A stretch of 9,910 nt of DNA from an uncultured Lachnospiraceae bacterium (GTDB lineage Bacteria; Bacillota; Clostridia; Lachnospirales; Lachnospiraceae). The stretch spans positions 1 through 9,910 of the forward strand of contig CAKRNI010000086.1 of NCBI GenBank assembly GCA_934370915.1, written 5' to 3'. Position 1 is the stretch's first letter, and the number at the start of each line of letters is the position of its first letter. A program made the translations under genes and the position numbers. The notes under the pieces are model-generated. The model did not search any database. It was not told the DNA's origin and saw nothing but the letters and a program-made list of their open reading frames with translations. Shown here piece after piece: positions 409-9,910 of this stretch.

Positions 409-1131
409 CTATTGTACCCTATGAGCACAAAGAGCCTCCGCGATGATCATATCCTCCGGAGTTGTCACTTTGATATTGGAATAACTCCCCTCGATAAGCT
501 TCACCTTCGTCTCCGTCATCTGTTCCACTACCATTGCATCATCCGTAATACGGCTGCGATCTGTTCCGGGTGCAAATACCTTCTCGTAGGCGCGGTAGAT
601 CAGACCGAAGCGGAATGCCTGAGGTGTCTGGATCTGCCATAAGGTACTGCGGTCCGGTGTGCTTGCAGAAAATCCCTCCGCATCCGCCGCCTTGATCGTA
701 TCCTTCACCGGCATCGATGCCACACAGGCAGAAAACTCCCGGGCACCATCCACAGCTCTCGCGATGATTTCCCCGTTTACAAGCGGTCTTGCCCCATCAT
801 GGATCAGAACGATACCGTCCTCTGTGAATCCTGCGGCCTTTAATGCGCAAAGTCCATTCCGGACAGAATCATACCGTTCTTTTCCTCCGGCCACGACCTG
901 TCTCACTCTGGTAAATCCGTACTGCTCCACGATATTCCTTTTACAGAATTCCTCTTCGTCTGCTCCGGTCACCAGAACGATCTCGTCTATCCCTGCCTTC
1001 TCAAAGGCCCGCAGGGCATGAACAACCACAGGCTCTCCCTTTAAGAGAAGATACTGCTTTGCCACCCTGCTGTGCATCCGCTTTCCATGTCCTGCTGCCA
1101 GAATGATGGCCGCTGTCTTCACGTTTTCCAT
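409..1131 (-). CDS. ispD: 2-C-methyl-D-erythritol 4-phosphate cytidylyltransferase (IspD)
   Basis: IspD couples CTP with MEP to give CDP-methylerythritol, the third step of the cytosolic MEP pathway to isoprenoids, including undecaprenyl carriers. The 240-aa protein has the usual family length. The nucleotide-binding loop LAAGHGKRM is at 11-19, K25 follows, GGKERYDSVRNG is at 82-93, HDGARP at 111-116, the region around TLWQIQTPQAF at 163-173, TDDAM at 196-200 and SYSNIKVTTPEDM at 216-228. R18, K25 and K221 match the catalytic Arg/Lys set known for the family. It starts at an ATG that shares its A with the tsaD stop (TAATG), behind GGGAGA with 6-nt spacing, which implies translational coupling. 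It ends in TAG, after which the frame stays open for 43 codons. Confidence 0.97.
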   Translation of the reverse strand: MENVKTAAIILAAGHGKRMHSRVAKQYLLLKGEPVVVHALRAFEKAGIDEIVLVTGADEEEFCKRNIVEQYGFTRVRQVVAGGKERYDSVRNGLCALKAAGFTEDGIVLIHDGARPLVNGEIIARAVDGAREFSACVASMPVKDTIKAADAEGFSASTPDRSTLWQIQTPQAFRFGLIYRAYEKVFAPGTDRSRITDDAMVVEQMTETKVKLIEGSYSNIKVTTPEDMIIAEALCAHRVQ

Positions 1132-2168
1132 TATCGTTCTCCCAGTTTCAGGTTCGGTACCGCGTTGAGATCCCAGCCGGCGCGGACACCGTTGATATAC
1201 TCATAATATCCCGCAGCACCGATCATAGCCGCGTTGTCGGTACAGAAGATCGGTGACGGATAGTAGAATTCGATTCCGGCCTTCTCACACGCCTCCTTCA
1301 TACCTGCACGCAGGGCAGAGTTCGACGCCACACCGCCGGCAATCGCAAGTTTCTTATAGCCAAACTCCTTTGTCGCCGCGATGGCACGGCTCACAAGGAC
1401 ATCCACCACCGCGTTCTGGAAGGACGCGCAGAGATCCGGTACACAGATCGTCTCACCTTTCATTTCCGCCTGATTAATATAATTTAATACTGCGGATTTC
1501 ATGCCGCTGAAGCTGAAGTCATAGGGAGAGCCTCCGACTTTTGCGCGCGGGAATTCCATTGCATGGGGATTTCCCTCTTTTGCAGCCTTGTCAACCTTCG
1601 GTCCGCCCGGATATCCGAGTCCTACCGCGCGGGCTACTTTATCGAATGCCTCTCCTGCTGCGTCATCCATCGTGCGGCCGATGATCTCAAATTCACCATA
1701 GTCCTTCACGATAACAAGATGAGTGTGGCCACCGGACACAATCTCACAGACAAAGGGCGGTTCCAGATCCGGGTGCTCGATAAAGTTTGCGGATACATGT
1801 CCCTCGATATGATGAACCGGCACCAATGGCTTCTTTGCGGCGTAAGCGATAGCTTTTGCCGCTGCAACACCCACAAGAAGCGCACCCACAAGACCAGGTC
1901 CGTAGGTCACAGCGATGGCTGTGATCTCATCTAATGTCATGTGTGCTTCGTCTAAGGCAGCCTGAACCACCTGATTTACCTTCTCAATATGTTTCCTTGA
2001 CGCAATCTCCGGTACAACGCCGCCGTAAAGTGTGTGGAGCGCGATCTGGGATGAGATCACGTTAGAAAGCACCTCACGGCCGTTTTTTACAACAGAAGCC
2101 GCTGTTTCATCACAGGAACTCTCGATTGCAAGTATATATACATCTTCTTCAACACTGTGTATCTTCAT
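1131..2168 (-). CDS. tsaD: tRNA N6-threonylcarbamoyladenosine transferase catalytic subunit (TsaD)
   Basis: TsaD (Kae1/Gcp family) transfers the threonylcarbamoyl group from TC-AMP to A37 of ANN-decoding tRNAs, working in the cytosol with TsaB and TsaE. The 345-aa protein is full length. It shows the N-terminal ASKHA motif [14 protein letters not shown] at 14-27, [12 protein letters not shown] at 89-100, the metal-binding HHIEGH at 119-124 (H120 and H124), VSGGHTHLV at 144-152, GLGYPGGP at 183-190, IAGGVASN at 276-283 and TDNAAMIG at 310-317 with the metal-binding D311. The ATG at 2168 sits behind GAGG with about 8-nt spacing, 3 bp after the rnz stop. The last base of the stop is the first base of the ispD start. 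The partner genes tsaB and tsaE are not in this window. Confidence 0.98.
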
Positions 2169-2171
2169 TTC

Positions 2172-3083
2172 TTAATCCTCATCAAATCCAAGTTCAGCAG
2201 ACCAGCCGTCGCGGGCAGTCTTAATTTTCGGGAAGATTTCCCGGATCTCGTTTAAATATTCCTCCGGATGCATTAAAGACGGGCTGTAATGGGTCAGCCA
2301 CATCTCCCTCGGATTCGCCTCTTTGCCGAGCTTTGCCGCCTCCTGAAACATCATATGTTTATTTTCCCGGGCATTGGCGATCTTCTCTTTTTCGCCGTAC
2401 ATGCCCTCGCAGATAAAGAGGTCATTGTCCGCGGCATATTCCGCAATCGCCGGCACCGGACGCGTGTCGGTCGTGTAGGTGACCGAAATTCCGCGGCGTT
2501 TTTCTCCAAGTACCATATCCGGTACCAGAATCCTGCCCTCGTGCTCGATCGTTTCCCCCTTCTGGAGTCTGCTCCAGAATTTCTGTGGAATCTCCTGGGC
2601 TCTCGCCCGCTCCACATCAAATTTACCGTTTCTCGGGATCGTGATCCGGTAGCCATAGCAGGTCACACGGTGATTTACGCGGAACGCGTCGATCACATAC
2701 GGTCCCGCCTGAAATTCTTCTCTCGGCTCCGTGAGTTCCTTAAACACAAGCGGGAACGGAAGCTCCGGTGCGATCATGCGGAGTGCGCCCACTACGCGTT
2801 CCAGACCTTTTGGGCCAACGAGGAGTACCGGTTCCGTGCGCTCCGCGTTTCCCATGGTCAAGAGAAATCCCGGAAGCCCGCTGATATGATCCGCATGATA
2901 GTGGGTAAAGCAGATCACATCCACAGGCTTCGGGCTCCATCCCTTTTCTTTTAATGCGATCTGGGTTCCTTCACCACAGTCGATCAACAGGTTGCTTCCG
3001 TCGCAGCGCGCCATCATGGATGTAAGCCAGCGGTACGGCAGCGGCTGCATGCCGCCGGTCCCCAGTAAACAGATATCTAACAT
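2172..3083 (-). CDS. rnz: Ribonuclease Z (tRNase Z)
   Basis: A metallo-beta-lactamase-fold endonuclease that cuts tRNA precursors after the discriminator base, mainly those lacking an encoded CCA. From the chosen ATG (3083) the protein has 303 aa, the normal size for the short bacterial form. The zinc motif HYHADH is at 61-66, with H138, D206 (in TYTTDTRP) and H265 (LTHYS) as the remaining ligands. Their spacing fits the known B. subtilis enzyme. H243 is in HMMF, where many homologues have HSTA. An in-frame ATG at 3122 is rejected because it would add 13 unconserved residues and has no ribosome site; the ATG at 3083 has AGAGGA at 3095-3090, 6 nt away, and gives the usual MLDICLLGTGG start. 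It is the first gene of the rnz-tsaD-ispD operon. Confidence 0.95.
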   Translation of the reverse strand: MLDICLLGTGGMQPLPYRWLTSMMARCDGSNLLIDCGEGTQIALKEKGWSPKPVDVICFTHYHADHISGLPGFLLTMGNAERTEPVLLVGPKGLERVVGALRMIAPELPFPLVFKELTEPREEFQAGPYVIDAFRVNHRVTCYGYRITIPRNGKFDVERARAQEIPQKFWSRLQKGETIEHEGRILVPDMVLGEKRRGISVTYTTDTRPVPAIAEYAADNDLFICEGMYGEKEKIANARENKHMMFQEAAKLGKEANPREMWLTHYSPSLMHPEEYLNEIREIFPKIKTARDGWSAELGFDED

Positions 3084-3123
3084 GTATTTTCCTCTGCATT
3101 CTATGATAAATCTAAAATTCATT

Positions 3124-3169
3124 GTAACGGTTCAGCAGTTCTATACCTGTCACAGCGCTGAATCGTTAC
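3124..3169 (-). repeat. Inverted repeat in the rnz leader
   Basis: Arms of 13 bases at 3124-3136 and 3157-3169 pair across a 20-nt loop. In the minus-strand leader RNA 12 of 13 positions pair, with one A/C mismatch; read from the plus strand the mismatch becomes a G-U pair and the stem is complete. It lies about 13 nt after the predicted start of transcription and about 40 nt before the rnz start codon. No U-run follows it, so it is not an ordinary terminator. It could stabilise the mRNA, act as a leader regulatory element, or be a DNA operator. Confidence 0.6.
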
Positions 3170-3188
3170 TATCTTTCAGTCTGCTCGT

Positions 3189-3218
3189 ATCATACCATAA
3201 AGCGGCCGCTATATGCAA
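3189..3218 (-). promoter_or_regulatory. Extended -10 promoter of the rnz-tsaD-ispD operon
   Basis: Minus strand reads TTGCAT (3218-3213), an 18-bp spacer, then TATGAT (3194-3189) preceded by TGG, so the extended -10 TGnTATGAT is present. Predicted start of transcription is near 3182, giving a leader of about 100 nt before rnz. The spacer contains the 10-bp palindrome AGCGGCCGCT (3201-3210), which may be chance. Confidence 0.7.
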
Positions 3219-3257
3219 GTGATGGTGACTGATTCCCGGACATGCCCCGCTCTTGCA

Positions 3258-3269
3258 GTGAAATTTCAC
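3258..3269. repeat. 12-bp palindrome GTGAAATTTCAC upstream of the rnz promoter
   Basis: A perfect 12-bp palindrome centred about 80 bp upstream of the predicted rnz transcription start and about 50 bp after the stop of the small cysteine-pair gene. It may be a binding site for a dimeric regulator. It is too short and has no U-run to be a terminator. Function is inferred only from position and symmetry. Confidence 0.35.
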
Positions 3270-3317
3270 CTAACTTTGTCAGTATTCCGGTTTTTCCGCC
3301 GCACGCTGTCCGATTTT

Positions 3318-3560
3318 TCAAAGCAGCTCGATCTCATCCTCCACATCCACCGGGACCCGGAACTCCGCTGTCATTTCGTCATAGCAATCCTCACACAGGT
3401 CAAAGTGGTGGACCTCCCCGTCTTTTTCCGAAAAGAAGTCCCATCTGTGGTCCGCTGTAAACACACCTTCCCGCACGATCCCATGTTTCACTGCCAGTTT
3501 TTTCCCACATCGGTTGCAGATCACGCAATCCAGCCTTCCATCTTTTCCGTATTTTCTCAT
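3318..3560 (-). CDS. Small cysteine-pair (zinc-ribbon-like) protein, function unknown
   Basis: An 80-aa acidic protein with cysteines C12, C15 and C18 (CVICNRC) and a second pair C56 and C59 (LCEDC). Two CxxC knuckles 38 residues apart are the usual ligand pattern of a zinc ribbon; C12 would be a spare thiol. HH at 51-52 sits just before the second knuckle. The C-terminus is strongly acidic (VEDEIELL). No signal peptide or membrane segment is visible. GGAGG lies upstream of the ATG with about 10-nt spacing. It follows rimI by 75 bp in the same direction, so the two are probably cotranscribed. I recognise the general appearance from clostridial genomes but know no function. Confidence 0.85.
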   Translation of the reverse strand: MRKYGKDGRLDCVICNRCGKKLAVKHGIVREGVFTADHRWDFFSEKDGEVHHFDLCEDCYDEMTAEFRVPVDVEDEIELL

Positions 3561-3635
3561 CGTTTCTTTTCCTCCGCCTTCTTTATCTCCGGCTCTTCCG
3601 GAGTCCCCTACAGTATAGCGGATATTTTCATGATT

Positions 3636-4184
3636 TTAAGTGGGAATGGATGGAATGGGACGTCTCCACATGATGAGGGCATCCTCCATCGGATTCTGGT
3701 AGTAATTTTTCCGCACAGCCTCCGCCTGAAAACCATAGGATTTATAAAGGTTTATGGCAGGTGTGTTTCCGGCGCGCACCTCCAGAGTCAGGTCCATCGC
3801 TTCCTTTTCCTTTGCAGAGATTTCCAGACGGTCCATGAGTTTCTTTGACTCCCCACGGCCCCTGTGTTCCGGCAGCACTGCGATCCGCATGAGCTCGCCT
3901 TCGCCGGCAAGAAAGCGGAAATTCGCGTATCCGATCCTGGCGCCGTCTGTATCTGTCAGCACCCAGGCCTCGTCCCACTCGCTCTCCAGCAGGTCGAAGA
4001 GAAGCTTTTCAGACCAGGCATCTGAAAAGCAGGTCTGTTCGATCTGCTCCACAGCAGAAATATCGTCCACAGTCATCGCGCGAAGCACAGCTCCTGCCTG
4101 TTCCGCGGGTTTTTCACCGCTGTTTTCGTTATTTATGTATTTATTATGATTGTTGGAATTTTCATGAATAATGTCTTTTTTCAC
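3636..4184 (-). CDS. rimI: Ribosomal protein bS18-alanine N-acetyltransferase-like GNAT (RimI)
   Basis: A GNAT-fold acetyltransferase; RimI acetylates the N-terminal alanine of ribosomal protein bS18 using acetyl-CoA. The core is at about 33-175: LRAMTVDDISAVEQIE at the start, CFSDAWS at 52-58, the acetyl-CoA loop region MRIAVLPEHRGRG at 99-111, LEVRAGNTPAINLYKSYGF at 134-152, and the closing NYYQNPMEDALIM at 160-172 with the family's tyrosines. The GTG at 4184 is chosen because AAGGAG stands 6 nt before it; an ATG at 4250 has no ribosome site and adds unrelated sequence. This start gives 182 aa, including about 32 extra N-terminal residues rich in Asn, Lys and Glu that are not part of the GNAT fold and are encoded by AT-rich DNA. 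rimI commonly neighbours tsaD in Clostridia, which supports the name; other GNAT substrates remain possible. Confidence 0.88.
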   Translation of the reverse strand: MKKDIIHENSNNHNKYINNENSGEKPAEQAGAVLRAMTVDDISAVEQIEQTCFSDAWSEKLLFDLLESEWDEAWVLTDTDGARIGYANFRFLAGEGELMRIAVLPEHRGRGESKKLMDRLEISAKEKEAMDLTLEVRAGNTPAINLYKSYGFQAEAVRKNYYQNPMEDALIMWRRPIPSIPT

Positions 4185-4190
4185 TACATT

Positions 4191-4196
4191 CTCCTT
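4191..4196 (-). promoter_or_regulatory. Ribosome binding site that sets the rimI GTG start
   Basis: AAGGAG on the minus strand, 6 nt before GTG at 4184-4182. An overlapping ATG is followed at once by TAG and cannot be used. This site decides for GTG over the upstream ATG at 4250 and over the internal ATG just before the GNAT core, whose nearest purine run is too far away. Confidence 0.75.
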
Positions 4197-4278
4197 TTCG
4201 GCCGCATTCCACAGGTTTCCACACGATACACGACGGATCTGCCGGATCATTGCCGGAATTTTCGTTCATGTGAACAGA

Positions 4279-4350: not shown

Positions 4351-7300
4351 CTACCGCTTTTTCTCCGGTGTAAAGTCCTCCTCGATGACCTTCCACGCGG
4401 CCTCAACGCTGAAGTATTCGCGAATATACTTCTGGGTCTCCTCGCACATTCTGCGGCATTCTGCCGGATCCTCATACATCTTCACTACCTCGTCAGCGAA
4501 TGCCTCCGGTCCGTCAGCTACCTTCATGACACGTTCCGCCTCCGGGATTCCCTCGGAGCCGATGGATGTGGTGACGATGGCAGATCCGTTATAGACAGCC
4601 TCAACGACCTTGCCCTTGACGCCGGCGCCATAGCGCAGTGGTACTACAACGATCCGCGATGTGGCGTAGAGGGACGCAAGCTCTTCCTCTGTGACAAAGC
4701 CTTTGACGATGATGCCGCTTCCCGGCTGCTCAAGCGCCTTGATCTCGTCTGTCACCTTGGAACCTACCACATAAAAGTTCACGTTGATCTTCTGTCTGAT
4801 TAACGGGAAGATCTCCTTTGCAAACCAGAGCACTGCGTCAGCGTTCGGCGGATGCGCGAAACCGCCGACAAACAGCAGTCCTTCCCTCTTTGCAAAGTCC
4901 TTATCAATATTCTCCAGAAACTTCTCGTAAACATAAGCTGTGATCGCCTTGATCTTGTACTCCGGATGGATCGCGTGGATCGCCTCTTCCTCCACATAGG
5001 ACGGATAGTAGGAAACCGCCGCCTTCTCCATCAGGGAGAACTCGATGGACTTCCAGTAATCGGACTCCCGCTTCTTTTTGATATCACCGGTGAGCTCATA
5101 CTCCCGGTATTCTCTTAAGAAATGCAGGTCATGTCCATAATAGATCACCTTGATATCTGTATTCTGCTTAATAAAATCAACATATTTGATGGCAATATGC
5201 GGGCGGTTCAGGTATGCAAAATCGATCTCATCTTTGTTCTTTGTCAGCCAGTCCCAGATTCCTGCCTGATATTCCGGTCCGTATAAGATCTCCACACCCA
5301 TCTGCTGAAGCGTTGTGGAGTACGGCTCCTCGTGAAGGAAGTTATCTCCGAGGAATTTCACGGAGTATCCCATCTTCACAAACATTTTGAGGTACTGGTA
5401 AGTAGTCTTGGAACCCGCGTCCTTATCGAAGGTCGGAACATAGTGGTCCACGACGAGGATCACCGGCTTCTTCTGGCTTCTCTCACGGGCACGGAACGGG
5501 TTCGGATTGCCTGTATTTACAGACTGCTTTTTGAACTCCTCCGCCCACTTTTCTTTTAATTTCCTACTGTTTTCCACCTGATAGCGCTTCAGACCGGTTC
5601 CGTTTACATCGGTACCGTTGGAAACACCCTCGAAATGGATCACCTTGGATAACGGCTGATAAACCACACGGTATCCGGCTTTTCTCACCTCAAAGGCAAG
5701 ATCGGAGTCCTCACAGTACGCCGGTGCAAACAGCTCGTCAAAACCGCCGATCTGCTTCCAGAGGCTTGTGGATAACAGAATCGCTGCTCCGGAGATATAA
5801 TCGACATCCTTCACATAGTTGTACTCCGGCTTCTCCGGATCATCGAGACGTCCGTAATTCCAGCCGGAACCATCACTCCAGATGATGCCGCCGGCTTCCT
5901 GAAGACGTCCATCCGGATATACCAGTTTGGAGCCAACCATGCCGATGGTCGGATCGGACTCAATGAGGTTCACAAGGGATGACAGCCAGCCCGGAGTCAC
6001 CTGGGTGTCATTGTTTAAGAACATGACATATTTTCCGCGGGCTGCCTTCGCTGCCTGATTGCAGTTTCTTAAAAATCCCTGATTTGTCTTATTTCTGCAG
6101 ATTACGAGATTTTCCGCGTACATGGACAGCTCCTTTGTCGCGTCCGTGGACACATCATCTGCAATGATGATCTCGTAGGTCACATCCTTTGTGTTCTCTA
6201 AAATAGAGAGCAGGCAGGCGTAGGTATAGTGGATCTGATTATAGACCGGGATCACGATGGATACGGTCGGGTGCTCCACATAGTCAAAATGCAGTTTTCC
6301 GTGCTCTAAATATCCGGCACCGATCTTAAAATCGCCGCGGATCCTGTTCCTTCCGTCCTTTGTGAAATACAGCTTTCCGTATTTTCCCGGGTGGAAGACG
6401 GTGTTCTTGAAGTAACCCGCGATCTTTCTCTTTCTCGTGCCCTTCGGCATGACTTTATCCACAGCACGGTGGCATTTCCGGAGAACTTTCCACATGATTG
6501 CCTCATGCTTCGACAGGTATGCAAGATCTCCTGCCATTCTCGCGTTCTCGCTTCTGAGGCTGGCGATGATGGCATCCAGATTCGTCACATGGTTGTTTGT
6601 GAGGCGCTGGACCTCCTGCTGCTTGCTGATCGTGATATCTTTTTCCGCAATCTCCTGTTTTAAGTTCTCGCACCAGTCTTTTACCTTGTAGAGCTCACTC
6701 TCCCGGTCGAGAAGGAATTCCACGGTCTTCGTCGGCTGTTCGTACTGTTTCATATAGCCGAAGGAGCCTGCGTTGTGGACATAGGACTGGAATGCCTTTT
6801 CCATACCGTCAAATACGGACTGTTCCTCCTCTGTGATCCCGAAATGGGCATAGAGATCCTGTTCTTTTACGTTCAGTACCTTCTCGTAGCGTCTGTAAAA
6901 ATATAAAAGATTGCGGTACTTTAAGAATTTCTCCGGGATTGGGAAATCAAATACCCACTCATAGTCGATTCCGTAGATACAGTTCTCATTTTCCGGCACC
7001 ATCAGGTTCTCGAAGAGTCCATCCACATTGGAGACAGCAACCGCCTTACCGCTGATTGACGGAACCTTTCCAAATACTGCCTCAAACTCCGGTGTCACCT
7101 GAAACGCTTTTGCGTCCGCATTTTCCGGGAACAGCACCTTCATCACAGTCTCAAGTTCTTTATACGGAACCTCGCCCATGACGATTGCTTCTCCGAGGGC
7201 ATCTCCAACTGTTTTGCCGTTTAAGTAGCGGAAGGAGACCGTCTTCTGATCCTCTTTCCATTCCGGTCTTAAAAAGCGGACAGCAGGATTCAGTTCCCGG

Positions 7301-7464
7301 ATCTTCTCATATTTTTCTCCGAAGGAGCGGATATGCGCTTCGCCAGCCGCTGTGAGAGCTGTCTTCTCAACGGTGAGAACGCCGTTTTCTTTTACGATCT
7401 CCGTCTTTAACTGGAACTGCTCCGCTCTGGTCCGGTTGTATTTTACAAATAAAATCTGTCTCAT
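4351..7464 (-). CDS. Multidomain protein: kinase-like region, coiled coil, GT2 and GT4 glycosyltransferases
   Basis: A 1037-aa protein, probably at the inner face of the membrane, building a glycan for Wzm/Wzt export. Residues 1-260 resemble a protein or small-molecule kinase fold: possible beta-3 lysine K34 (TVEKTAL), a hinge-like FRYLNGKTV at 78-86, D148 and N153 spaced as in a catalytic loop, and IDYEW at 166-170 in the DFG position. About 262-318 is a predicted coiled coil, followed by a basic stretch (340-365). About 398-615 is a GT-A domain: TVSIVIPVYNQ at 400-410, ADDVST 435-440, NND at 484-486 as the metal site, EDSD 585-588 as catalytic-base region. About 666-1035 is a GT-B domain with GGFAHPPNADA at 867-877 and RYGAGVKGKVVEA at 944-956, keeping the second Glu (E955) but not the first. 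The ATG at 7464 overlaps the upstream stop (ATGA) behind AAGGGG; an ATG at 7530 lies inside the upstream gene. Sugar specificity cannot be read. Confidence 0.9.
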   Translation of the reverse strand: MRQILFVKYNRTRAEQFQLKTEIVKENGVLTVEKTALTAAGEAHIRSFGEKYEKIRELNPAVRFLRPEWKEDQKTVSFRYLNGKTVGDALGEAIVMGEVPYKELETVMKVLFPENADAKAFQVTPEFEAVFGKVPSISGKAVAVSNVDGLFENLMVPENENCIYGIDYEWVFDFPIPEKFLKYRNLLYFYRRYEKVLNVKEQDLYAHFGITEEEQSVFDGMEKAFQSYVHNAGSFGYMKQYEQPTKTVEFLLDRESELYKVKDWCENLKQEIAEKDITISKQQEVQRLTNNHVTNLDAIIASLRSENARMAGDLAYLSKHEAIMWKVLRKCHRAVDKVMPKGTRKRKIAGYFKNTVFHPGKYGKLYFTKDGRNRIRGDFKIGAGYLEHGKLHFDYVEHPTVSIVIPVYNQIHYTYACLLSILENTKDVTYEIIIADDVSTDATKELSMYAENLVICRNKTNQGFLRNCNQAAKAARGKYVMFLNNDTQVTPGWLSSLVNLIESDPTIGMVGSKLVYPDGRLQEAGGIIWSDGSGWNYGRLDDPEKPEYNYVKDVDYISGAAILLSTSLWKQIGGFDELFAPAYCEDSDLAFEVRKAGYRVVYQPLSKVIHFEGVSNGTDVNGTGLKRYQVENSRKLKEKWAEEFKKQSVNTGNPNPFRARERSQKKPVILVVDHYVPTFDKDAGSKTTYQYLKMFVKMGYSVKFLGDNFLHEEPYSTTLQQMGVEILYGPEYQAGIWDWLTKNKDEIDFAYLNRPHIAIKYVDFIKQNTDIKVIYYGHDLHFLREYREYELTGDIKKKRESDYWKSIEFSLMEKAAVSYYPSYVEEEAIHAIHPEYKIKAITAYVYEKFLENIDKDFAKREGLLFVGGFAHPPNADAVLWFAKEIFPLIRQKINVNFYVVGSKVTDEIKALEQPGSGIIVKGFVTEEELASLYATSRIVVVPLRYGAGVKGKVVEAVYNGSAIVTTSIGSEGIPEAERVMKVADGPEAFADEVVKMYEDPAECRRMCEETQKYIREYFSVEAAWKVIEEDFTPEKKR

Positions 7465-8321
7465 GCCTTCCCCTTTTCCCACATGCCGAGGAATGAGTTG
7501 GAAAACTTCGTAAAGTCCCCATTTCTGCATGCGTTCGCCATGGCTTTCTCCTCGTTTCCGAACCAGAGTCCCGGACCGTCAAAACGGGCGGAGATATTTG
7601 TCACATCGCCGGTCTGCGGGAGATAGTCGTCGGAGTAGATCGTTGCCGGATAACGGTAATCCGGAACCGGATAGTAGAGCATCGCGGTTCCACCGAATTT
7701 TTCCTTTAATCCCTCAAACAGACCGCGCAGCTCCACCTCTAAATAGGAGTGTTCAAATGGCTCCGCGCCCATAAAGTAGCGGACGCCGGACTCATTCTCT
7801 GCCGCTGCTAAGAGTTTTCCTCCCGGTTTCACAAGGGATGCCGCTCTTTCCAGCAGATCCGCTGCCCCACTTTTCTCTGTCTCAGAGAGCATGGACGGCA
7901 GGATCACATAGTCGAATCCAGCTTTATAGAGCGCGTCCAGCTCCTCTGCTGCACGTTCTTTTCCCTTGTACTCTTTCCACCCAGAAGACTCTGCATCTGC
8001 CTTCGGAAGTTCCCCGCGGATCAGGCAGAGGTTTTCCTTCTCCCCATGTCTTCTCCGGTTCACCTCCAGATTCTCATCCCGCCAATCCAGAACGACCACC
8101 TCACCGGCGCGTTCTGTAAAAAGTCCGGTACAGGAACCGTAGTCGGATCCGACCTGGAGAACCCGGTCATTTTTTCCTATTTCCAGCCACTCGAAAAGAT
8201 TTTCCCTTAACGGCGAAAATGCGTAGAGACACCACGGGGTCGTTTCTCCCCGCAGTGCCGCCTCCGCATCTCCTTTATACTTTTCGAGCAGGTCAAGAAG
8301 TTCATAACTGTAATCCTTCAT
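7461..8321 (-). CDS. SAM-dependent methyltransferase-like protein of the polysaccharide operon
   Basis: A 286-aa soluble protein with a class I Rossmann methyltransferase layout at about 40-215. Motif I is VLQVGSDYGS at 54-63, the acidic end of strand 2 is VVVLDW (D79), strand 4 is FDYVILPSM at 136-144, and LVKPGGKLL at 163-171 is the post-strand loop typical of the family. Motif I is degenerate: Gln stands where an acidic residue is usual and the middle glycine is Asp60, so activity is uncertain. After the fold comes YYPVPDYRYP at 216-225 and a tail ending in FSNSFLGMWEKGKA. It starts at ATG 8321 behind GGGAG, 6 nt away, and its stop overlaps the start of the next gene. The context suggests it methylates the growing or finished glycan, or, if inactive, serves as a scaffold for the kinase-like partner. 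Confidence 0.85.
   Translation of the reverse strand: MKDYSYELLDLLEKYKGDAEAALRGETTPWCLYAFSPLRENLFEWLEIGKNDRVLQVGSDYGSCTGLFTERAGEVVVLDWRDENLEVNRRRHGEKENLCLIRGELPKADAESSGWKEYKGKERAAEELDALYKAGFDYVILPSMLSETEKSGAADLLERAASLVKPGGKLLAAAENESGVRYFMGAEPFEHSYLEVELRGLFEGLKEKFGGTAMLYYPVPDYRYPATIYSDDYLPQTGDVTNISARFDGPGLWFGNEEKAMANACRNGDFTKFSNSFLGMWEKGKA
7470..7476 (-). other. Possible -1 slippery heptamer A_AAG_GGG at the methyltransferase/glycosyltransferase junction
   Basis: In the methyltransferase frame the codons are GAA AAG GGG AAG GCA TGA. A AAG GGG fits the X XXY YYZ pattern. A -1 slip would leave the frame at GGG and continue GAA GGC ATG AGA, exactly into the glycosyltransferase frame, giving one protein of about 1320 residues. 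The same G-run also serves as Shine-Dalgarno for the ATG at 7464, so ordinary coupled re-initiation is the simpler reading. A weak A/U-only hairpin (7455-7440) lies downstream. Confidence 0.3.
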
Positions 8322-8410: not shown

Positions 8411-9727
8411 TTATGCTTTTGTCAGCGATGTCTCCACTTCTGATTCCATGTCATACACACCAACTGTATTCTTATTGGAGATCACCGTAAGGTTTGCGAT
8501 GTTATACAGACGGTGGTATACCACATGTTCCTCACCCTCAAAGCCTGTACAGCTCATGGAGAGAAGGTACTCGCCCCCCTGCAATGTCATCTTCTGGGTA
8601 AAGGAAACATCGTAGATATCGCCATCTCCCACCGGTTTGATGTCACAGCCCTCATACATGGTGTTCGTTCCGGTGAGATCCGTTCCCTTCTTGTCGCGGA
8701 TCGTATAGGTAAAGATCGGACACTTGATCGGCGCATGGAAGCGGATCCGCTCCCTGATTGTGAACATCTCTCCCTTTAGCAGGAGATTTGTGAGGTTCCC
8801 TCTCGCGTCAAAAAGCCCCAGATCAAAGATCTCTGCCCGTCCGTCTCCGTACTCGGTTCGGTCGGTGTTGATGGTGATCTTATCCTTCATGAGGGATCCG
8901 TCGGAATGGACTTTCTCAGCCTTCACGTTCTTTTCTTCACCCATCATACCGCCGGAATAGTCGCTCTCCAACTCTTCCTTTAAGGAATCCAGCTGGTTTG
9001 CCAGGATCTTCTTATAGAGATCCACCATATGGCCCGGCTCACCTTCCGCGATGAACTCGCCCTTGTTTAAGAGAACGACCTTATCGCAGTATTTGATGAT
9101 ACTGCCCATATCGTGGGTCACCATGAGGATCGTGGTTCCTCTTTTTTTGATCTCCTCCATCTTCCGGTAACACTTTGCCTGAAAGAATACGTCTCCGACG
9201 GACAGGGCCTCGTCGACGATCAGGATCTCCGGCTCCACGTTAATGTTAAGCGCAAATGCCAAACGGACGAACATACCGCTGGAGTAGGTCTTTACCGGCT
9301 GATAGACAAAATCGCCGATATCCGCAAAATCCAGAATATCCTGCAGCTTTTCATCCATCTCTTTCCGGGAATACCCCATCATGGTGCCGTTCATATAGAT
9401 ATTTTCAATTCCGGTGTAGTCCATATTGAACCCGGCTCCAAGCTCCAGAAGCGCGGAGATTTTTCCCTCCACGTCCACCTGACCGGTGGTCGGTGTGAGG
9501 ACGCCGGTGATGATCTTTAAGATCGTTGATTTTCCGGAACCGTTCGTTCCGATAATGCCCACGGTCTGGCCCTTTTCTACATTGAAAGAGAGACCATTTA
9601 AGGCATAGAAATCCTTGTGATAGCTTTTATGTGTCGGGCTTAAGGACTCTTTCAGGCGATCGATCGGCTTGTCATAGAGTCTGTACACCTTCGTCACGTC
9701 TTTTACTGTAATCGCATTGGCAGACAT
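8411..9727 (-). CDS. wzt: Polysaccharide ABC transporter ATP-binding protein with C-terminal glycan-binding domain (Wzt-type)
   Basis: The ATPase of an O-antigen or teichoic-acid-type exporter, working with the Wzm permease at the cytoplasmic membrane. In 438 aa: Walker A GTNGSGKST at 60-68, the family's LELGAGF at 94-100, signature YSSGM at 148-152, Walker B ILIVDE at 168-173 and switch H205 (THD). The ATPase ends near 245 and an acidic linker follows. Residues about 285-425 form a beta-rich domain like the Wzt C-terminal carbohydrate-binding domain, which in E. coli O8/O9a selects capped glycan for export. Plain TagH/Wzt proteins without it are about 180 residues shorter, so the domain implies recognition of a particular chain end. 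GGAGG overlaps the wzm stop (TAGGAGG), 5 nt from the ATG. Confidence 0.95.
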   Translation of the reverse strand: MSANAITVKDVTKVYRLYDKPIDRLKESLSPTHKSYHKDFYALNGLSFNVEKGQTVGIIGTNGSGKSTILKIITGVLTPTTGQVDVEGKISALLELGAGFNMDYTGIENIYMNGTMMGYSRKEMDEKLQDILDFADIGDFVYQPVKTYSSGMFVRLAFALNINVEPEILIVDEALSVGDVFFQAKCYRKMEEIKKRGTTILMVTHDMGSIIKYCDKVVLLNKGEFIAEGEPGHMVDLYKKILANQLDSLKEELESDYSGGMMGEEKNVKAEKVHSDGSLMKDKITINTDRTEYGDGRAEIFDLGLFDARGNLTNLLLKGEMFTIRERIRFHAPIKCPIFTYTIRDKKGTDLTGTNTMYEGCDIKPVGDGDIYDVSFTQKMTLQGGEYLLSMSCTGFEGEEHVVYHRLYNIANLTVISNKNTVGVYDMESEVETSLTKA

Positions 9728-9736
9728 GGTTTCCTC

Positions 9737-9910
9737 CTACAATACATCTGAGAAATGCGGACGGAGCCGCTTGAATACTTTGAGTCCCACTAACATGGTG
9801 ATCAGGGTCACTGCCCAGAAATACACGGTCAGTGTCGGACGCATGAAGAACCAGTCTCCCGTCAGCATGCTGTCACGGTATCCCGCCGCGATATAGTAAA
9901 ACGGGTTCAG
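9737..9910 (-). CDS. wzm: Polysaccharide ABC transporter permease, C-terminal fragment (Wzm-type)
   Basis: Only the last 57 codons are in the window, starting LNPFYYIAAGYRDS and ending PHFSDVL before TAG at 9739-9737. LNPFYYI is typical of the periplasmic-side helix of ABC-2 polysaccharide permeases, and YFWAVTLITMLVGLKVF at 30-46 is the last membrane helix, followed by the short basic tail FKRLRPHF that is common at the end of this family. Its stop is built into the wzt ribosome site, so the two are coupled. The gene runs past the window edge; it is not truncated in any biological sense that can be seen. Confidence 0.93.
   Translation of the reverse strand: MNPFYYIAAGYRDSMLTGDWFFMRPTLTVYFWAVTLITMLVGLKVFKRLRPHFSDVL

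Follow-up and report, generated by a model that had tools for sequence, protein, structure and literature searches.

A predicted polymerase-terminator with kinase, helix and glycosyltransferase domains beside a Wzm/Wzt exporter in Lachnospiraceae

The 9,910-nt window (the whole stretch of DNA analyzed here; contig CAKRNI010000086.1 of an uncultured Lachnospiraceae bacterium, GenBank assembly GCA_934370915.1) carries two overlapping genes, one for a methyltransferase (MT) and one for a large protein with kinase-like, helical and glycosyltransferase (GT) parts, beside a Wzm/Wzt exporter of the ATP-binding cassette (ABC) type. These genes probably encode the polymerase-terminator of a polysaccharide exported by the adjacent Wzm/Wzt. 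In the full scheme, chain extension would fall to the two GT domains. The predicted APH-type kinase would place a phosphate on the non-reducing end of the chain, and the separate MT would add a methyl group to it. Chain length would be set by the long predicted helix, acting as a spacer of defined length between kinase and GT domains, and the Wzt_C domain of the exporter would let only capped chains through. Phosphate transfer, its methylation, length measurement by the helix and reading of the cap are proposed here by analogy with Klebsiella pneumoniae O7 and Escherichia coli O9a. Sequence and computation show the gene order, the domain make-up, invariant kinase residues and a near-fixed spacing between the kinase and the first GT domain (GT2). 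Capped, length-measured polysaccharides have so far been studied mainly in Gram-negative O antigens. Should the scheme hold, 129/250 sampled genomes of a major gut family, or about half, would make a surface glycan in this manner. How a Gram-positive commensal controls the length of such a glycan could then be tested by comparing the fused, split and MT-decayed versions that occur in nature.

Organization of the locus

9737..9910, minus strand: C-terminal end of the exporter permease (Wzm), clipped by the window edge; 57 aa and a stop codon read from the sequence
8411..9727, minus strand: Wzt, exporter ATPase with a C-terminal Wzt_C domain (PF00005 6.4e-23; PF14524 Wzt_C 2e-40)
8447..8860, minus strand: Wzt_C domain, residues 290-427 (Pfam), putative cap reader by analogy with E. 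coli O9a (PMC3482155)
7461..8321, minus strand: MT, 286 aa, in an open reading frame (ORF) of its own
7461..7464, minus strand: ATGA shared by the MT stop and the large-protein start, preceded by ggggaagg (sequence)
4351..7464, minus strand: large protein, 1037 aa, with kinase-like, helix, GT2 and GT4 parts (ORFs, Pfam, structure model)
6739..7464, minus strand: kinase domain, residues 1-242
7363-7365, 7021-7023, 7006-7008 and 6964-6966, minus strand: kinase residues K34, D148, N153 and D167, respectively
6451..6723, minus strand: candidate ruler, residues 248-338, 91 residues predicted as one helix and showing a heptad pattern (model and shuffles)
5884..6261, minus strand: GT2 glycosyltransferase domain, residues 402-527 (PF00535 2.2e-27)
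4468..4881, minus strand: GT4-type glycosyltransferase domain, residues 862-999 (PF13692 6.3e-23)

The clipped gene was assigned to Wzm by its position, because the gene at the same place in a relative (L003) is ABC2_membrane (PF01061). Residues of the large protein were numbered from the ATG at 7464. The listed ORF extends to 7530 (22 aa more); however, the ATG at 7464 appears the likelier start, as it overlaps the MT stop in ATGA and follows ggggaagg, an arrangement that also makes translational coupling of the two genes likely. The GT2 and GT4-type domains were the only parts of the large protein above the Pfam cut-off. The nearest solved sequence to the GT2 part was chondroitin synthase (7e-15), followed more weakly by other glycosyltransferases, such as GalNAc transferases.

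Kinase domain of the large protein

The landmarks on which a preliminary description of this DNA had based a kinase assignment (K34, FRYLNGKTV at 78, D148, N153 and IDYEW at 166) were all present. K34, D148, N153 and D167 were invariant in 61 aligned sequences (the window and 60 of 80 related loci), and the D, N and D were found in 60/60 further loci. In a table of 39 proteins, the D and N were present in 39/39 and the second D in 38/39 (E in Citrobacter). The proposal that residues 1-260 are kinase-like also held, as a kinase fold was predicted for this part and APH/AmiN-type small-molecule kinases ranked best among its fold matches. The predicted fold is common to choline and antibiotic kinases, whose substrates are very different.

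Helix after the kinase

The structure model contained one predicted helix at residues 248-338, with no beta domain between kinase and helix. A heptad-like stretch of about 55 residues had been described here; the hydrophobic heptad score of residues 262-318 was matched or beaten in 2/5000 shuffles, in agreement with it, but the helix as predicted is longer. Other cuts gave 3/5000 (245-325), 43/5000 (284-318) and 371/5000 (240-296, not significant), the last indicating that the heptad pattern sits in the later part. Across 79 window-type loci, the helix region reached shuffle p<=0.05 in 78 and p<=0.01 in 63, compared with 6 and 0 for a control taken from within GT2. In 79/79 loci, 229-252 residues separated IDYEW of the kinase from the GT2 motif (median 237; window 235). 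This near-fixed spacing fits a ruler and would also fit a rigid joint.

Methyltransferase

The MT of the window was weak in Pfam (best 8.4e-5, under the cut-off), but the earlier call of a methyltransferase-like protein was borne out by the family profile, which made its identity firm (UbiG 7.6e-12), and by the predicted fold of the homologous domain in L039. The glycine loop was lost (GSQxA) in five Lachnoanaerobaculum-type fused proteins (L071, L072, L073, L076 and L079), and no MT glycine loop could be aligned in two Oribacterium-type fused proteins (L074 and L075). All seven kept the kinase D/N/D/E/W. Decay of the MT loop while the kinase residues persist suggests that phosphorylation is the essential step of the module, consistent with O9a, where phosphorylation alone reportedly halts the chain (PMC3482155). 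The seven proteins are candidates for making phosphate-only caps. For the Lachnospiraceae as a group, we tentatively consider it possible that the kinase-ruler-polymerase puts one phosphate on the chain end as its invariant act. Methylation would then be an optional second lock that is fused, split, or lost in the Lachnoanaerobaculum- and Oribacterium-type lineages, where Wzt_C would read a phosphate-only cap. A regular-expression count of MT glycine loops in 60 loci was discarded, since inspection by eye revealed that it skipped some intact motifs.

Distribution of fused and split forms

The kinase profile was searched in 250 genomes from the family of the L012 genome ([Clostridium] aerotolerans DSM 5434), and was present in 129 of them; the Lacrimispora neighbours of L012 in the GT tree carry the label Lachnospiraceae. 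In a draw from the whole phylum, the profile was found in 7/398 genomes; the family sample had already included three of these. Stretches of 11-20 kb were fetched for 60 loci. The MT was fused in 29 of these, directly adjacent in 30 and not found in 1; a Wzt_C gene lay on the same strand of the fetched stretch in 53/60. With profiles derived from the window, GT domains were detected on the kinase chain in 20/60, probably a lower bound.

A quick tree was built from 79 GT regions (the window and 78 loci), with proteins over 1200 aa counted as fused; long-branch warnings apply to L066, L069, L074 and L075, among others. It held 34 MT-fused and 45 MT-split proteins, the window among the latter. 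The tree required 8 changes between the fused and split states, and well-supported branches made 4 or more of these unavoidable. Both versions were recovered among homologues, and the description of the module as split over two ORFs is true of the window, which represents one of two interchanging forms. The window fell in an all-split set of 8 (support 99) whose named members are mostly Lachnospiraceae, and the same 4-base overlap was seen in several split relatives (e.g., L001, L003 and L004). That 34/79 tree proteins are fused might suggest that the split is a frameshift artefact of one fused gene; this idea has next to no probability and was ruled out by the 45/79 split proteins, the recurring overlap and the all-split set.

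Some single proteins stood out. The longest kinase ORF among the 60 loci (L127, 8671-14343) encodes a 1890-aa chain with MT, kinase and a GT2 match. P0218, P0220 and P0221 are MT-kinase proteins of 775-782 aa without GT domains in Pfam; by eye, a possible beta-rich domain past the kinase and a short helix recall the layout of K. pneumoniae O7 with its carbohydrate-binding module (CBM). P0131, by eye, stops in an adapter-like tail just past the start of the GT2 motif, so the seeming absence of GTs from this protein probably stems from the assembly.

Relation to known systems

The nearest characterized relative is K. pneumoniae O7 ORF6, not WbdD (PMC11231755). Along ORF6 lie an MT, an unannotated kinase that requires D441, an Ig-like CBM, a coil and two GT2 modules; phosphorylation and methylation of the chain end by this protein have been demonstrated. 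The window shares the order MT, APH/AmiN-like kinase, coil and two GT domains, within an ABC-exporter pathway, and the family MT and kinase are homologous by profile to an apparent Pseudomonas counterpart of ORF6. As in the N-terminal part of ORF6, a class I methyltransferase domain precedes the kinase, the predicted kinase is of APH/AmiN type with the putative catalytic Asp (D441 of O7), and a coiled coil is predicted after the kinase (helix 248-338, heptad 262-318). Unlike in ORF6, the MT of the window is on a separate ORF and a GT4-type domain takes the second GT position; the host belongs to Bacillota.

The preliminary description had taken WbdD as the model. The order MT, kinase, coil and an exporter with a cap-reading Wzt domain are indeed shared with WbdD of E. 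coli O9a and K. pneumoniae O3 (PMC3482155), and the exporter ATPase of the window has Wzt_C (PF14524 2e-40) as in the O9a system. However, the WbdD kinase is described as Src-like and the WbdD chain is without GTs and recruits WbdA (PMC3482155), whereas the best fold matches of the window kinase are of APH/AmiN type and its chain carries GT2 and GT4. WbdD was not matched in the PDB-sequence search of the kinase region, in the profile scan, or among the 60 of 103 family-profile matches listed, and by fold it was absent among the matches listed for the kinase models and for the L039 MT domain, an absence that carries no weight against a relation. A module of MT, predicted kinase fold, long predicted helix, GTs and a Wzt with Wzt_C is supported in Bacillota; WbdD as its closest type is not.

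Joining terminator, ruler and polymerase in a single chain is already known from O12 WbbB and O7 ORF6. K. pneumoniae O12 WbbB resembles the window in combining a terminator, a coil ruler and two polymerase GTs, but it has no MT-kinase, its modules being GT99, GT102 and GT103, the catalytic ones all GTs (discussion of PMC11231755). A Gram-positive fusion of an MT with two GTs is also known, in WsaE of Geobacillus stearothermophilus (PMC2943079, PMC3898925), which like the module in the window goes with a Wzm/Wzt. In WsaE, the MT domain responsible for the cap is N-terminal and shares its chain with two rhamnosyltransferases, and the cap is 2-O-methyl; none of the three active domains of WsaE is a kinase, unlike the window with its predicted kinase fold ahead of the GTs. 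Orthologues of the O7 terminator were named in alpha- and gammaproteobacteria and cyanobacteria, and homologues of ORF6 in the archaeon Methanoculleus; the main text of PMC11231755 makes no mention of Gram-positive bacteria, Firmicutes or clostridia. In the literature listings that we searched, which did not extend to a 2019 census of chain-termination systems, no kinase-MT terminator was described from Bacillota. Literature listed on Lachnospiraceae Wzt, bolteae capsule, Firmicutes methylphosphate and Lachnospiraceae rhamnan did not, by title or abstract, deal with this module. The terminator of K. pneumoniae O12 WbbB adds Kdo.

Besides its spread in one bacterial family, the module is tied to Gram-negative MT-kinase proteins. 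With an MT-kinase relative lacking GTs as the query, tblastn against plasmid records returned 6 of them, the best two from Pseudomonas and Citrobacter. The Pseudomonas asturiensis protein (1457 aa) lies beside an ABC permease and ATPase, and the Citrobacter braakii protein (649 aa) beside rml genes and an ABC exporter. The family profile aligned through MT and kinase with both (5.1e-29 and 2.4e-28, respectively). D443 and N448 of the Pseudomonas protein were invariant in 13 aligned relatives and aligned with D148 and N153 of the window, and the published O7 S-adenosylmethionine-site residues matched it at the same numbers in 6/6 cases. A search with the Pseudomonas protein for the K. pneumoniae O7 sequence returned 1249 matches; among the 120 listed, every named organism was Pseudomonas. 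The Citrobacter cluster (L082; C. braakii plasmid pF217-3, 87246-102277) is O-antigen-like, with rml genes, ABC exporter, MT-kinase protein and GTs, and the plasmid was typed as conjugative.

Alternative explanations

Several results weigh against the proposed scheme. Searched as a single sequence against PDB sequences and Pfam, the kinase region matched no kinase, and scans with the kinase profile and the 61 members gave coil-like and other chance matches and no kinase family; the comparison with kinase families suggested in the preliminary description thus yielded no Pfam kinase family for this domain. One of these matches was DUF4135, a kinase-like family, in 4/61 members (best 0.0048). Without the MT, the kinase-helix profile fell to 4.3e-6 in Pseudomonas (probability 87) and 0.0019 in Citrobacter (probability 14.5); the kinase-only profile gave a modest 2.5e-6 in the Pseudomonas record and no match in the Citrobacter record. 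Among six further O7 positions (D441 and five GT-motif residues), 1/6 had the same letter at the same number in Pseudomonas, D441 lying two residues off (D443) and 4/5 GT-motif residues mismatching by number, so the numbering agreement is confined to the MT. The glycine loop of the window MT (QVGSDYG) differs from the canonical acidic-xGxGxG. No Ig-like CBM like that of ORF6 was predicted between kinase and helix in the window model; it is present in O7, and PMC11231755 does not describe it as shared by every orthologue. In Foldseek, the MT-kinase-helix model matched WbdD at ranks 16 and 29 over >500 aligned columns, a span also reached by the methyltransferase 5dpl, and with a root-mean-square deviation of 15-18 Å and TM 0.20-0.28, a WbdD-like two-domain arrangement is unsupported. 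A heptad pattern within 110 residues past the kinase reached p<=0.01 in 14/59 tested among 60 further loci and the window (control 1/61), indicating that, outside the window type, a coil immediately behind the kinase is a feature of a minority. Part of the helix is conserved in sequence (QRLTNNHV in the window), hence the helix may bind a partner and be more than a spacer.

This conserved sequence favours a helix that serves oligomerization or partner binding and is no ruler, with capping independent of length, as WsaE methylation is in vitro (PMC2943079). Such a role deserves serious weight but is unlikely, given the near-constant kinase-GT2 spacing over 79 loci and the coil-ruler precedent in O9a and O12 stated in PMC11231755. 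The kinase might instead phosphorylate internal or side-chain sugars or add another phosphate-linked decoration, with chain length set by the exporter and no terminator at all. The diverse substrates of kinases with this predicted fold would allow it, and the cap itself is carried over by analogy, but an MT beside or fused to the kinase in 59/60 loci and Wzt_C in 53/60 are the parts list of cap-and-read systems, and homology to the O7 type adds to this, making internal phosphorylation improbable. Direct capping of a hydroxyl by the MT, on the WsaE or O8 pattern, with the kinase domain reduced to a dead scaffold, is very unlikely: the WsaE cap is attributed to the MT domain alone (PMC2943079), yet in the present family the kinase residues are the most strictly kept, and they persist where the MT motif is decayed or missing.

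Sugar and neighbouring genes

In two relatives, L003 and L012, rmlC lies directly before the permease gene, which makes dTDP-rhamnose a likely donor, and we infer that the polymer may contain rhamnose. Enterocloster bolteae has a mannose-rhamnose polysaccharide, and that the polymer here is the same one is a speculative reading. Directly downstream of the module in L012 (13289-15674) are hddC-, hddA- and gmhB-like genes of heptose-nucleotide type, all under curated cut-offs. In the window, the downstream genes (409-4250, minus strand) look housekeeping, with IspD (Pfam-tested) and, by eye, TsaD, a metallo-beta-lactamase-fold protein and a RimI-like acetyltransferase.
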